A stretch of 64,000 nucleotides of DNA, taken from positions 62,001 to 126,000 of the forward strand of contig CAMFLR010000006.1 in the NCBI GenBank assembly GCA_945957605.1, in the 5' to 3' direction. The notes under the pieces are model-generated. The model had not been told where the DNA came from. It was given only the letters and a program-made list of their open reading frames with translations, and ran no database searches. The number at the start of each line of letters is the position of its first letter. Position 1 is the first letter of the stretch. Both the position numbers and the translations under genes were made by a program. Shown piece after piece: positions 44,332 to 49,014 of the stretch. Source of the DNA: an uncultured Isosphaeraceae bacterium (GTDB lineage Bacteria; Planctomycetota; Planctomycetia; Isosphaerales; Isosphaeraceae).

Positions 44332-44907
44332 TCAAGCCCAGCCGTAGGCAGCGAACAAATCCATCACCGGTTGCGTCAGTCCAAGGATTATCCAAAGGAC
44401 CGCAATCGCGAAACGAAAACCGTCGGCCCGGAGATCCCAACCGCAACGACGTGCGAGAAGAAGTTGCAAGATTGCGCCGAGCACGAAAAAACCAGTCGCA
44501 CTCTGCTCGGATGTGACCAAGCTCAAGAGGGCAAATCGATACTGTCGAAGGGAGCTTGCCCCCGCGCCAGGCGGATTGAGCTTGCGAAAACGGGTAATCC
44601 ACAGGAACAAAATGGCAGTTAAAAGATAAGCTGTTGCAGCAAGGCACCCGGCAAATCCCGGATATCGAACGAGTCGGCGAAATCGCTCGCGAGGTGGCAG
44701 GAACGCGTGAATTGTCGCCGCGATCGTAAGGGCGGAAAGCACCGGCAACGCAAAGATTCTGAAAACAAAGATCAAACCCCATGGACCCGAAATTGTCAGG
44801 CCGTCCGAGCCAGAGGCGTATCTAAGCGGAAGCGCACCAATGGCGGCGAACACAACCATGATCATTGAATCTCGCAGCAGAAACCGCGATCGCCCAGTCG
44901 TTTCCAC
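44332..44907 (-). CDS. Small membrane protein, paralogue A
   Basis: A 191-residue protein from GTG 44907, with about five hydrophobic segments. The segment RERFRRLVRYPGFAGCLAA is shared in form with RSLRRLMRGPGFVGCLAA of the upstream gene (45015-45647), so the two are paralogues. It has no catalytic motif. It is the last gene of a minus-strand run that begins with an ABC transporter. Confidence 0.65.
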   Translation of the reverse strand: METTGRSRFLLRDSMIMVVFAAIGALPLRYASGSDGLTISGPWGLIFVFRIFALPVLSALTIAATIHAFLPPRERFRRLVRYPGFAGCLAATAYLLTAILFLWITRFRKLNPPGAGASSLRQYRFALLSLVTSEQSATGFFVLGAILQLLLARRCGWDLRADGFRFAIAVLWIILGLTQPVMDLFAAYGWA

Positions 44908-45014: not shown

Positions 45015-45647
45015 TTAGAGCCGCGGCCATTCTGACCACCAAGAGGGCATGGTTGTGAATGCGTTGATAACGTTTGGAATCCACCAAGAGCCAACGACCA
45101 GCCAGAGGAAACACAACACAAGTTGAAACCCATCGAGCAACCCCGACCAGCGCCAGCGGCGGCTGGCGTACAGGCCGAAGATTGCTCCAGACGCGATAGG
45201 TCCGACGCTTTCAAAGAGATGAGACGATCTTATGAGATAAAAAAGGGTCAGCCGTACTTCGCGTGATCCCGGAGCTCTCGTCGTCTTGTAATCATTCTCC
45301 ATTTGGAGAAACTGCGGAGCGTACTTTGCAGCAATTCCACTCGGCAAAACCACCAACACAAGCACGAGCGAGGCCGCTAGACAGCCGACAAAGCCAGGAC
45401 CGCGCATCAGCCTTCTAAGCGACCGATGCGGCGGCAATAGAGCCACTGCAGTCGACGCGAGCGTCAGTGAGACGAGCGGCGGAATGAAGAACGAGCGATA
45501 AGCCAGAAATCGACTCGTGGGCTGCAACATGAACGGCCAACGTGCACCGGTAAAAAGAAACCAAAGCGGCAGAAGCCCGACGGCAAGAGCACCAAGCATT
45601 ATCGCCGCAGCGACGACATGCTTCACTCTCGTGTCGGGCTTCTCCAT
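45015..45647 (-). CDS. Small membrane protein, paralogue B
   Basis: A 210-residue protein with four or five hydrophobic segments (AAAIMLGALAVGLLPLWFLF, FFIPPLVSLTLASTAVALL, GFVGCLAASLVLVLVVLPSG, near-C-terminal LVLCFLWLVVGSWWIP). It is paralogous to the next gene (shared RRLMRGPGFVGCLAA-like block). It starts 15 bases after the ABC exporter stop, so it is probably co-transcribed with it. Its role is unknown; a partner of the exporter is possible. Confidence 0.7.
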   Translation of the reverse strand: MEKPDTRVKHVVAAAIMLGALAVGLLPLWFLFTGARWPFMLQPTSRFLAYRSFFIPPLVSLTLASTAVALLPPHRSLRRLMRGPGFVGCLAASLVLVLVVLPSGIAAKYAPQFLQMENDYKTTRAPGSREVRLTLFYLIRSSHLFESVGPIASGAIFGLYASRRWRWSGLLDGFQLVLCFLWLVVGSWWIPNVINAFTTMPSWWSEWPRL

Positions 45648-45662
45648 TCCATGGCCCCTTGC

Positions 45663-47645
45663 TTACCCGTTCATTTGCCCCGCTTCGACTTCACCGGTTG
45701 CAAACTGGTTGAACTCGATGTACTGCAAGTGGCGATAGAGCTTGCTTTGCGAGTGCATATCGCGAGGCGCTCCGCTTGCGTCGACGTGACCGTTCGATAG
45801 AACGATCACCTGGTCGCACGACCGAATCGTCGACAGACGATGCGGCAGGATGATCACCGTTCGGTTCTGCGAGAGCCGGCTTACTGTGTCATCAAGGTAC
45901 GCCTTCACCTCATCGGGAAGGTGATCCTGCGGTTCCTCGATGATCACGATCGAAGGATCGTGCAGGGCTGCACGAGCGAGACCGATTCGATATTGCTGGT
46001 CGGGCGACAGATAGGTCCCGAGCGGCCCAATCTGCGTGTCGTAACCTTGCGGCAGGTCCTGAATGAACGAGTGGGCGTGCGCGAGTTTGGCAGCTTCCAT
46101 CACGCGAGGCAGGTCGTAGCTTTCATCACCAAGTGTGATGTTCGCCAGCACGGTATCGCTGAAGACCAGGTCGGCCTGAAGCACGGTCGAGACCTGAGCG
46201 CGAATTGATTCGAGCGTCACGTCTTTCAAGTCGATGCCATCGACTTTGACACGGCCAATCACAGGGTCGATCAGGCGAGGAATCAGGCAGACGAGCGCGT
46301 ATTTTGAATCGTCGTCGAGCCCCATGATCGCCACACGCGTGCCGGCGCGAATCTCGGCGTTCAAGCCGTCGAGAAGCTTGCGGCCCATCGCATTTTGCAG
46401 CGTCACGTTTTCAAACGTGATGCGATTCTTGAGCGGTGGCAGAAAACCCGCGCCGCCGGCTTGCTGAAGGTCGGGCGAGTGGTCGAGGTAGGTGAAAACC
46501 GCGTTGGCCGATCGGCCCGCCTGATCCTGGGCTTTCTTCATCCGCAGCCACTCAACCAACGGCACAACCAGGCCAGCGAGCGTCGCGACCAGGAAGAAGA
46601 TTGCAACGGGCGAATGCTGACGAACGACCACAGTCGACGTCAACACGCCAGCCGCAGCAACCGCCGCCGAGCCGATCACCAGGAAGAGCAACGCGTTGCC
46701 GTTCCCCGGCGCGACCATCCGACGAACGTCCGCGTCGGTGTAGCGTTCGAGGTGTTCGTCGAACCGCGTCTTGTCGACGTTCTCCATGCCGAACACGCGG
46801 ACGATTCGCAGCAAGCTCAAGTCTTCTTGAAGTGCGCTGAGATGAATGGCAGCGTCACGCGTGGCGACCGTGAGGATGTCGGCACTCGAACGTCGCAGCA
46901 CGCGCGTCACTAGCCAGATCAGAGCGCCGAGCGCGGCGAGGAAGAGGGTCGACTTCCAATCGACAAGCAGCAAGAACGTGAGCAGGCCGAGGACGAGAAT
47001 CGGTACGCGCGACTCGACGTCGAGTGAGTTGAAGAGGCTGTTGCGGATGTCGTTCACTTCGCGTGTGAAGAGGTTGACGACCGGGCCTGTGCCCTCGTTC
47101 GGCAAGCTCGACTCACCGAGGCGGTACATCTGGCGATGAATTTGGCGGCGAAGCGACGCAGCGGTATCGCAGGCGACGATCGCCAGCGACTTGCGGCGAA
47201 TGCGGCTCATGAGCGTGAGCAAAAGGATCAGCGCGAACGCCGTCGCGGTGAGCGTTTGCAGCGCGCCGGCGTTCGTGTGAAGCGACGGAACCGCTTCAAC
47301 CGCAGTCAGCGCGATCATCCCGCCGAGGCTGTGAATGGGGTGCGGGCTATTGAAATTCGCGGCGACGAGCGGGAACAGGCCCGAGTCGTCGACGATCGCG
47401 AGATTTCCTTTTTGGCCCGTCGCGCGGCTTTGTGCCCAGTCGGGCAGAACGGCAAGGGTGCCGCTATCTATGAGTGCGGTGCCGCGCGTCGTGACGAGCA
47501 CGCCAAGCAGACCGACCGTGGCAAGTAATCCCAGGACGAGTACCGACTGAAGGGTGCCGAGAAGCTGGGCTCGGAAGACTGCGCCTTGCCGGGTGCCAAG
47601 AAGCTTCCGGGCCCGTTCAAACGCCACGGTTGACATGCGTTTCAA
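45663..47645 (-). CDS. ABC exporter-like protein with degraded nucleotide-binding domain
   Basis: A 660-residue type I exporter architecture. The membrane part (about 20-370) has six hydrophobic segments. An external segment between helices 1 and 2 (about 55-130) holds SRATGQKGNLAIVDDSGLF. The nucleotide-binding part has Walker A replaced by GLDDDSKYA (442-450), which keeps Lys448 but loses the glycines and Ser/Thr. The signature LSGGQ is LSPDQ (546-550), and Walker B ends in IVIIEEP (Glu570, normally Asp). The H loop His602 remains. ATP hydrolysis is therefore doubtful. Comparable motifs may occur in other planctomycete proteins. Two small membrane paralogues follow it. Confidence 0.85.
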   Translation of the reverse strand: MKRMSTVAFERARKLLGTRQGAVFRAQLLGTLQSVLVLGLLATVGLLGVLVTTRGTALIDSGTLAVLPDWAQSRATGQKGNLAIVDDSGLFPLVAANFNSPHPIHSLGGMIALTAVEAVPSLHTNAGALQTLTATAFALILLLTLMSRIRRKSLAIVACDTAASLRRQIHRQMYRLGESSLPNEGTGPVVNLFTREVNDIRNSLFNSLDVESRVPILVLGLLTFLLLVDWKSTLFLAALGALIWLVTRVLRRSSADILTVATRDAAIHLSALQEDLSLLRIVRVFGMENVDKTRFDEHLERYTDADVRRMVAPGNGNALLFLVIGSAAVAAAGVLTSTVVVRQHSPVAIFFLVATLAGLVVPLVEWLRMKKAQDQAGRSANAVFTYLDHSPDLQQAGGAGFLPPLKNRITFENVTLQNAMGRKLLDGLNAEIRAGTRVAIMGLDDDSKYALVCLIPRLIDPVIGRVKVDGIDLKDVTLESIRAQVSTVLQADLVFSDTVLANITLGDESYDLPRVMEAAKLAHAHSFIQDLPQGYDTQIGPLGTYLSPDQQYRIGLARAALHDPSIVIIEEPQDHLPDEVKAYLDDTVSRLSQNRTVIILPHRLSTIRSCDQVIVLSNGHVDASGAPRDMHSQSKLYRHLQYIEFNQFATGEVEAGQMNG

Positions 47646-47814
47646 TCCTGGCGGTTCGCAGCCCGCCTTGCTGTTGAACGCCGGCCGCTCTCCCTGAGCA
47701 CCGGCGTTCCAGTCGTTGTTTCACGTCCTGAGTCGAGCGAAGGCGTCAAAGGCTACAAACCTGCGGTCGACCGACGAGCAAGAATACACGCCCAAAGAGG
47801 TGGGCGACGTCTCC

Positions 47815-48732: not shown

Positions 48733-49014
48733 TTAGTAACGAATCTGAAATGATTGCGGAGGCTCGTCGGGAAGGACGGGAACGACCGACTCATCTGCGC
48801 GATGGATTTTCGCGCCAAGCTCGGCCCGAATCGCGTCGAGAAACTGGCGGAGTTGCGTGGGATCGCCCTGGGCTTCTAACTCGACATTGCGATCGGGAAG
48901 GTTCCGAACGAATCCGGACACCCCAAACGCTGGTGCGAGGCTGCTAGCGGTGGCTCGGAAGCCCACGCCCTGCACGCGTCCCTGGTAAATCACCCGCAGC
49001 CGCTCCCGCGACAT
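48733..49014 (-). CDS. acyP: Acylphosphatase
   Basis: A 93-residue acylphosphatase of normal length. The catalytic Arg20 is in GRVQGVGFR and Asn38 is in FVRNLPD; VELEAQGDPTQLRQFL completes the fold. It hydrolyses the carboxyl-phosphate bond of acyl phosphates. It is followed by the ABC-2 permease about 100 bases downstream on the same strand, without an obvious link. Confidence 0.95.
   Translation of the reverse strand: MSRERLRVIYQGRVQGVGFRATASSLAPAFGVSGFVRNLPDRNVELEAQGDPTQLRQFLDAIRAELGAKIHRADESVVPVLPDEPPQSFQIRY

Follow-up and report, generated by a model that had tools for sequence, protein, structure and literature searches.

An MsbA-like ABC exporter family of planctomycetes that has lost its canonical ATP-site motifs and usually adjoins a NosY-like permease gene

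Degenerate ABC exporters have been reviewed before (PMC7756269). The degenerate exporters treated there keep one working ATP site, and a composite site consists of Walker A and Walker B of one nucleotide-binding domain (NBD) and the signature of the other. For Pdr5, PMC7756269 describes several motifs of one site that are changed at once. Here, we describe a planctomycete family of MsbA-like exporters in which the canonical motifs are lost together. Among the literature matches listed, no title or abstract start in the open-licence literature describes such a family; the fold is known, and it is the combination of features that is absent from these titles and abstract starts. The main text of a study on essential genes of Planctopirus limnophila (PMC10632474) contains no mention of ABC transporter, ABC-2, permease or MsbA.

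The gene is located on the minus strand of a 64,000-nucleotide stretch of DNA from an uncultured Isosphaeraceae bacterium, referred to here as the window, whose source genome is 8.8 Mb. Counted from TTG 47645, its open frame is 660 codons long and ends at 45663. Orthologue starts align with ATG 47636, TTG 47645 being an upstream codon, and judged by this alignment the gene probably starts at ATG 47636 and encodes 657 amino acids (Table 1). Because the product matches PF00664 (63.7 bits) and PF00005 (43.9 bits), each above its cut-off, it is a real exporter gene. The membrane domain is fused to a C-terminal NBD as in type IV MsbA-like exporters, but none of the three motifs Walker A, signature and Walker B is intact. 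The protein is also not an MsbA lipid A flippase, reaching 258.9 bits versus the equivalog cut-off of 602 (NCBIfam TIGR02203). The original prediction had read GLDDDSKYA at Walker A, LSPDQ at the signature and EE at the end of Walker B, and these readings were borne out; it had given no strand, which is the minus one. It had also stated that the membrane part, Lys448 and the H loop remain, and Lys448 and H602 (numbered from TTG) are indeed present in the protein. Its description of Walker B as degraded holds for the Asp, which is replaced by Glu, but not for the catalytic Glu E571, which is retained in 100/100 family members among the matches listed.

Table 1. Features of the pseudo-exporter locus, in window coordinates
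Feature	Coordinates	Strand	Remarks
Pseudo-ABC exporter, from probable start	45663..47636	-	657 aa from ATG; 660 aa from TTG 47645
Former Walker A GLDDDSKYA	46296..46322	-	residues 442-450, numbered from TTG
NBD helical subdomain, residues 498-536, with EAAKLAHAHSFIQDLPQGY	46038..46154	-	conservation in family equals canonical exporters
Former signature motif LSPDQ	45996..46010	-	
Altered Walker B IVIIEE, then Pro	45933..45950	-	Asp replaced by E570; catalytic Glu kept as E571
H-loop His602-Arg603	45837..45842	-	Arg in 100/100 family members, His in 39/100 (among matches listed)
Insert, model residues 51-121	47274..47486	-	between first two long membrane helices; from secondary structure of model
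ABC-2 (NosY-like) permease, 273 aa	47815..48636	-	upstream neighbour in most loci
Acylphosphatase gene	48733..49014	-	frequently upstream of permease
Two small membrane proteins	44332-44907 and 45015-45647	-	no Pfam match

For comparison of the motifs we used 100 non-redundant family members, at least that many existing among the matches listed from a peptide-pattern scan, same-class searches and three further loci; they remained from 111 after removal of identical C-termini, and copies from genus g6 stand outside this set. The contig scan used the EEP and EAAKxxHAH motifs as patterns, so the sample is biased toward members with those motifs. The joint change that had been noticed in the single gene recurs across homologues: among the matches listed, all three canonical motifs are lost in 99/100 members, and the sole exception among the 100 (L095) still has Asp-Glu in Walker B. 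Walker A glycine and lysine occur together in 0/100, and signature Ser-Gly is kept in none of the 100; counted separately, the P-loop Lys is found in 42/100 and the glycine before it in 3/100 (all among matches listed). In a control of 25 canonical exporters, Walker A was kept in 25/25 and all three motifs in 18/25. Chance is no explanation of the motif losses, given Pfam matches above cut-off and 99/100 members that share all three losses. Canonical motifs were also looked for in close orthologues and not found; every close orthologue aligned is non-canonical, as are 32/32 same-family copies. Of these 32 copies, 26 retain Lys448, 29 retain H602 and 30 retain the Q-loop Gln.

Conservation is distributed unevenly over the NBD. 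It is lower in the family than in canonical exporters for the signature block (0.52 vs 0.92), the Walker A block (0.49 vs 0.69) and the D-loop block (0.52 vs 0.71), and likewise for the Q-loop and Walker B blocks. For the helical subdomain the two values are the same (0.65 vs 0.65), and for the signature helix they are 0.76 in the family and 0.71 in canonical exporters. In known exporters, the helical subdomain faces the coupling helices. Among the matches listed, the Asp preceding the catalytic Glu is changed to Glu in 92/100 members, a Pro follows the catalytic Glu in 96/100 and an Arg follows the H-loop in 100/100. An Asp-Asp pair at 585-586 shows weighted conservation of 0.89 and 0.98 and is present in 32/32 same-family copies. 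In the membrane half, the near-invariant columns are R8, G86, L129, R163, R172, L173, G174, L269, R277, E285 and L296 (numbered from ATG). The ATP loops have drifted, and what was kept is the helical subdomain together with the Arg and E-E-P positions; the NBDs would still retain the coupling elements.

The former ATP site is rich in acidic residues. In 32 Isosphaeraceae-type copies, D444 is present in 29, E/D445 in 31, D/E446 in 30, D549 in 31, E570 in 31 and E571 in 32. The mean net charge over 18 motif positions is -5.1 in 32 Isosphaeraceae-type copies, -3.0 in the 68 other members and -1.0 in the 25 canonical exporters, the 32-row sets for net charge and for residue counts differing slightly in membership. 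Should the NBDs form dimers like those of known exporters, the acidic loop would lie opposite the acidic former signature at the interface. From these residues one might picture a conserved acidic site that could hold a divalent cation, the exporter fold being ATP-free, locked or gated by the cation and controlling the permease; we consider this a long shot. If it were true, these bacteria would possess an ABC machine operating on a different chemistry.

The family forms a single group in the trees. In quick trees, 32 family rows were split from 16 canonical rows with an SH-aLRT of 100, and the same split with an SH-aLRT of 100 was obtained on the whole protein and on the membrane part alone; these trees were made with a quick method and contain long branches (L162, L053, L052, L003), and their canonical rows are a sample of best matches, not all exporters. 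The ATP sites were apparently lost once, in an old planctomycete family of MsbA-like exporters. Whole-gene dN/dS was 0.043-0.189 in 11 pairs, and NBD dN/dS was lower than that of the membrane domain in 8/11 pairs; dS was 1.35 in the window's own pair, which is near saturation. Motif loss in one sequence resembles decay, and one same-family genome (G025, 81% complete) has no copy, which would fit a pseudogene on its way out. However, long open frames in the fetched loci and the dN/dS of 0.04-0.19 rule out a decaying pseudogene, and with the same losses in 99/100 members among the matches listed this reading retains next to no probability. Stop-flagged matches are in line with this: G223, G272 and G264 proved to be single open frames on checking and G411 has an open frame of 615 codons, so that the flagged stops in these four are read as terminal; other flagged matches, such as G245 and G419, lay outside this check. 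The earlier proposal of selection for a non-ATPase role and not random decay is supported by the motifs of close orthologues, the low dN/dS and the complete predicted fold.

A structure model built from 42 sequences (mean pLDDT 85.1, pTM 0.72) presents a complete exporter protomer. In a structure search, the best 50 entries had Z scores of 28.7-31.3 and included MsbA, TmrAB, CmABCB1 and P-glycoprotein; full-length rows among the structure matches align over 495-594 residues, and the rmsd to MsbA (9fur_A) is 4.2 over 558 residues. In the model, the insert after the first helix forms a small mixed alpha/beta element that is presumably extracytoplasmic.

Copies of the pseudo-exporter were found in 36/37 same-family genomes searched, the 81% complete genome mentioned above being the sole blank. 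Clear orthologues with 46-70% identity are present in 30 of these genomes, including the window's own, three of them matched just from about residue 126 on. Of the others, one copy is more distant (G020), one is partial (G008), one is split across two contigs (G030), and three genomes of genus g6 carry very divergent copies adjoining the permease; a fourth g6 genome, outside the 37-genome set, likewise has a divergent copy beside the permease. Searching 393 genomes of the phylum with the family profile gave 59 genomes with scores of at least 497 bits, every one from the window's class; below a gap, the next-best row, at 411 bits, is a canonical exporter (L054). A cut-off near 450 bits is too strict: the copies in four g6 genomes and in G411 score just 239-262 bits, and a contig-end fragment with family motifs (G051) scores 373 bits. 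Because such divergent copies and the fragment score lower, there are at least 59 genomes with the family, and the score gap marks no clean border.

The g6 copies still have a readable helical subdomain and EEP stretch. Compared with the window protein, these copies are 46-56% identical in the helical subdomain, 23% in Walker A and 0% in the D-loop; for the canonical exporters L002 and L055, the corresponding values are 41-46%, 23-31% and 0-29%. At the sequence level, the identity pattern of the g6 copies is non-specific, with a helical subdomain at most slightly above canonical exporters. The most divergent copy (G411, locus L162) has 26% identity in the helical subdomain and YE at Walker B, and it scores below the cut-off for the Pfam ABC domain (19.5 vs 25). 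Four genomes of a single genus, as well as G411, have divergent copies directly after the permease; the loci with such extremely divergent pseudo-exporters directly 3' of the permease include L209-L212 and L162.

The upstream neighbour has the membrane family (PF12679, 35.6 bits vs a cut-off of 27.2) and the fold of a NosY-like ABC-2 permease (Z 19.5 and rmsd 4.1 over 249 residues versus NosY, 7znq_Y). In the window, 178 bp separate it from the exporter gene. In the phylum set, 59/59 genomes with the family (at least 497 bits) have the permease, and it is adjacent on the same strand in 55/59 with a gap of 25-773 bases. As a control, the permease was adjacent to 0/23 lower-scoring same-class exporters although present in the genome; these 23 are the listed rows below 450 bits in permease-bearing genomes, with motifs checked in some only (L002, L054). 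This same-class control was added because an earlier control set of 20 canonical exporters, none with the permease alongside, came mostly from other phyla that are possibly permease-free, with only three planctomycete titles (L141, L142, L148). Of 41 wide loci, two hold canonical exporters and three end at the gene; the permease is directly upstream on the same strand in 35/36 others. Among 60 family loci from named records, seven end too close, and in the 53 that are testable the permease is adjacent in 47 and apart in six. The pair is unlinked in G211 and G231 (one genus, one or two contigs), while in G043 and G415 each gene has its own contig.

Conversely, the permease is widespread in the phylum (291/393 genomes at E 1e-15) and occurs without a recognisable pseudo-exporter in 13/14 loci from genomes with low profile scores, the 14th being G411 with its very divergent copy. 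One of these 13 loci (L172) is from family f13, of which another genome has the exporter family. A dedicated ATPase encoded near the permease was not found in the window's locus and most others. With phmmer and seven ABC queries from the same genome, ABC ATPase frames were detected in the fetched flanks of only 2/39 degenerate wide loci (L051, L056). Other ATPase frames were seen near L124, among seven further loci, and several kilobases off in L173; outside the class, one of 13 permease loci (L191) has an ATPase frame close by. An acylphosphatase gene precedes the permease in 26/41 wide loci and also occurs in loci without the pseudo-exporter.

Several side observations concern the same neighbourhood. 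A terminator-like hairpin is located at 47789-47806 (minus strand) between permease and pseudo-exporter; such sites are at chance level, with 5 found vs 4.2 expected. At nine loci from several families of the class (L160, L161, L162, L166-L170, L173), the permease frame measures 490-649 codons from stop to stop, with about 180-370 extra residues before the permease part that resemble membrane helices around an extracytoplasmic domain; the pseudo-exporter is missing at eight of these nine. A frame about 3-7.5 kb downstream of the gene start recurs in 16/41 wide loci (among them L042 and L059-L066) and resembles a CMP-Kdo synthetase. The two small membrane proteins encoded downstream of the window's gene are paralogues with 33% identity to each other and had been suggested as possible partners. 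The first of them had no match in the one same-genus genome and only weak matches in 5/40 other family genomes, and neither gene recurs in the neighbourhood comparison of wide loci. As conserved partners they were rejected, the first of the two having been searched in the family; the conserved neighbour is the upstream permease.

Because the motifs are lost in nearly all relatives examined, yet selection is strong and a transporter gene is the usual neighbour, the protein probably has a job that needs no ATP. That this planctomycete MsbA-like family is ATP-dead and kept for a non-ATPase job as permease subunit, scaffold or regulator has, in our estimate, about an even chance. The protein would then form an exporter-shaped dimer whose NBDs serve as a mechanically coupled platform, not a motor, and would act as non-catalytic subunit, scaffold or regulator of the NosY-like permease. 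Motif loss is uniform, the family is a single tree group, purifying selection acts on both domains and the association with the permease is close; the predicted fold is that of a complete exporter. Adjacency to the permease is no proof of a complex. On the other hand, the pseudo-exporter might itself be an ATP-independent transporter, a homodimer that is gradient- or ion-driven or a lipid scramblase and is independent of the permease. That the membrane domain is entire and the predicted fold complete fits this idea, as does the protein's persistence where the permease lies elsewhere in the genome (G211, G231), and proton coupling has been reported for MsbA transport (PMC4979069). However, few columns in the membrane half are nearly invariant, and the charged ones appear to lie mostly in cytoplasmic loops and not along a proton path. 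A pure carrier also needs no NBD, yet NBD dN/dS is the lower one in 8/11 pairs, and we regard an independent transporter as unlikely, though a serious candidate. It is rather improbable that the link to the permease has no functional meaning and that the protein plays some unrelated part, structural or sensing, in the membrane: adjacency is found in several families of the class and the permease is present in 59/59 genomes with the protein, even when unlinked. What speaks for such a role is that the acylphosphatase is also a frequent permease neighbour (26/41 wide loci), so that the neighbourhood may be conserved for other reasons, and that the permease is common without the pseudo-exporter.

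The pseudo-exporter could further belong, as the degenerate half, to a heterodimer of the TM287/288, TAP or Pdr5 kind, the gene for its canonical partner lying elsewhere. Transporters with one degenerate site are common, accounting for 21/29 human non-homodimeric ABC transporters (PMC7756269), and canonical exporters do occur elsewhere in the genome, e.g. C6:30102-31616 with 28% identity. The signature of a composite site comes from the opposite NBD, however, and the protein has lost its own signature (LSPDQ) as well as its Walker A. Whatever the partner, both composite sites would therefore be non-canonical, its NBD could not re-create a canonical ATP site, and normal ATP hydrolysis by such a pair is unlikely. 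A canonical partner half is also not encoded alongside, ABC ATPase frames flanking only 2/39 degenerate wide loci and L124 among the seven further loci. The original prediction had suggested looking for a catalytically complete partner; none was found beside the gene, and pairing could not restore a canonical site. Altogether, a heterodimer seems very unlikely to us. Binding or hydrolysis of ATP at an unconventional site we consider more improbable still. It would agree with the catalytic Glu in 100/100 members (among matches listed) and with Lys448, H602 and the Q-loop Gln in 26, 29 and 30 of 32 same-family copies, but the former phosphate site is acidic (mean net charge -5.1 and -3.0 vs -1.0 in canonical exporters), and the P-loop Lys and the glycine before it are found in just 42/100 and 3/100 members among the matches listed.

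Near-universal loss of the chemistry among the copies examined, under selection across a class, offers a natural test of NBD roles beyond hydrolysis. With a permease family that is mostly without a neighbouring ATPase, the driving force of the permease becomes an experimental question. Like MsbA-like (type IV, ABCB/Sav1866-type) exporters, the pseudo-exporter has the full predicted fold, the domain order and the Pfam domains ABC_membrane and ABC_tran; unlike them, it is without Walker A, signature and Walker B Asp and carries a roughly 70-residue insert after its first helix. With heterodimeric exporters (TM287/288, TAP, CFTR, Pdr5) it shares motif changes in an otherwise preserved NBD. In the heterodimers, the losses are spread over both halves and one complete site is left (PMC7756269), whereas the pseudo-exporter has lost Walker A and signature in one chain and, in most loci, is without a partner half encoded alongside. 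Its upstream neighbour shares the fold of NosY and other ABC-2 permeases. Unlike NosY, the permease of NosDFY, it is seldom near an ATPase gene and instead adjoins the acylphosphatase and the pseudo-exporter.
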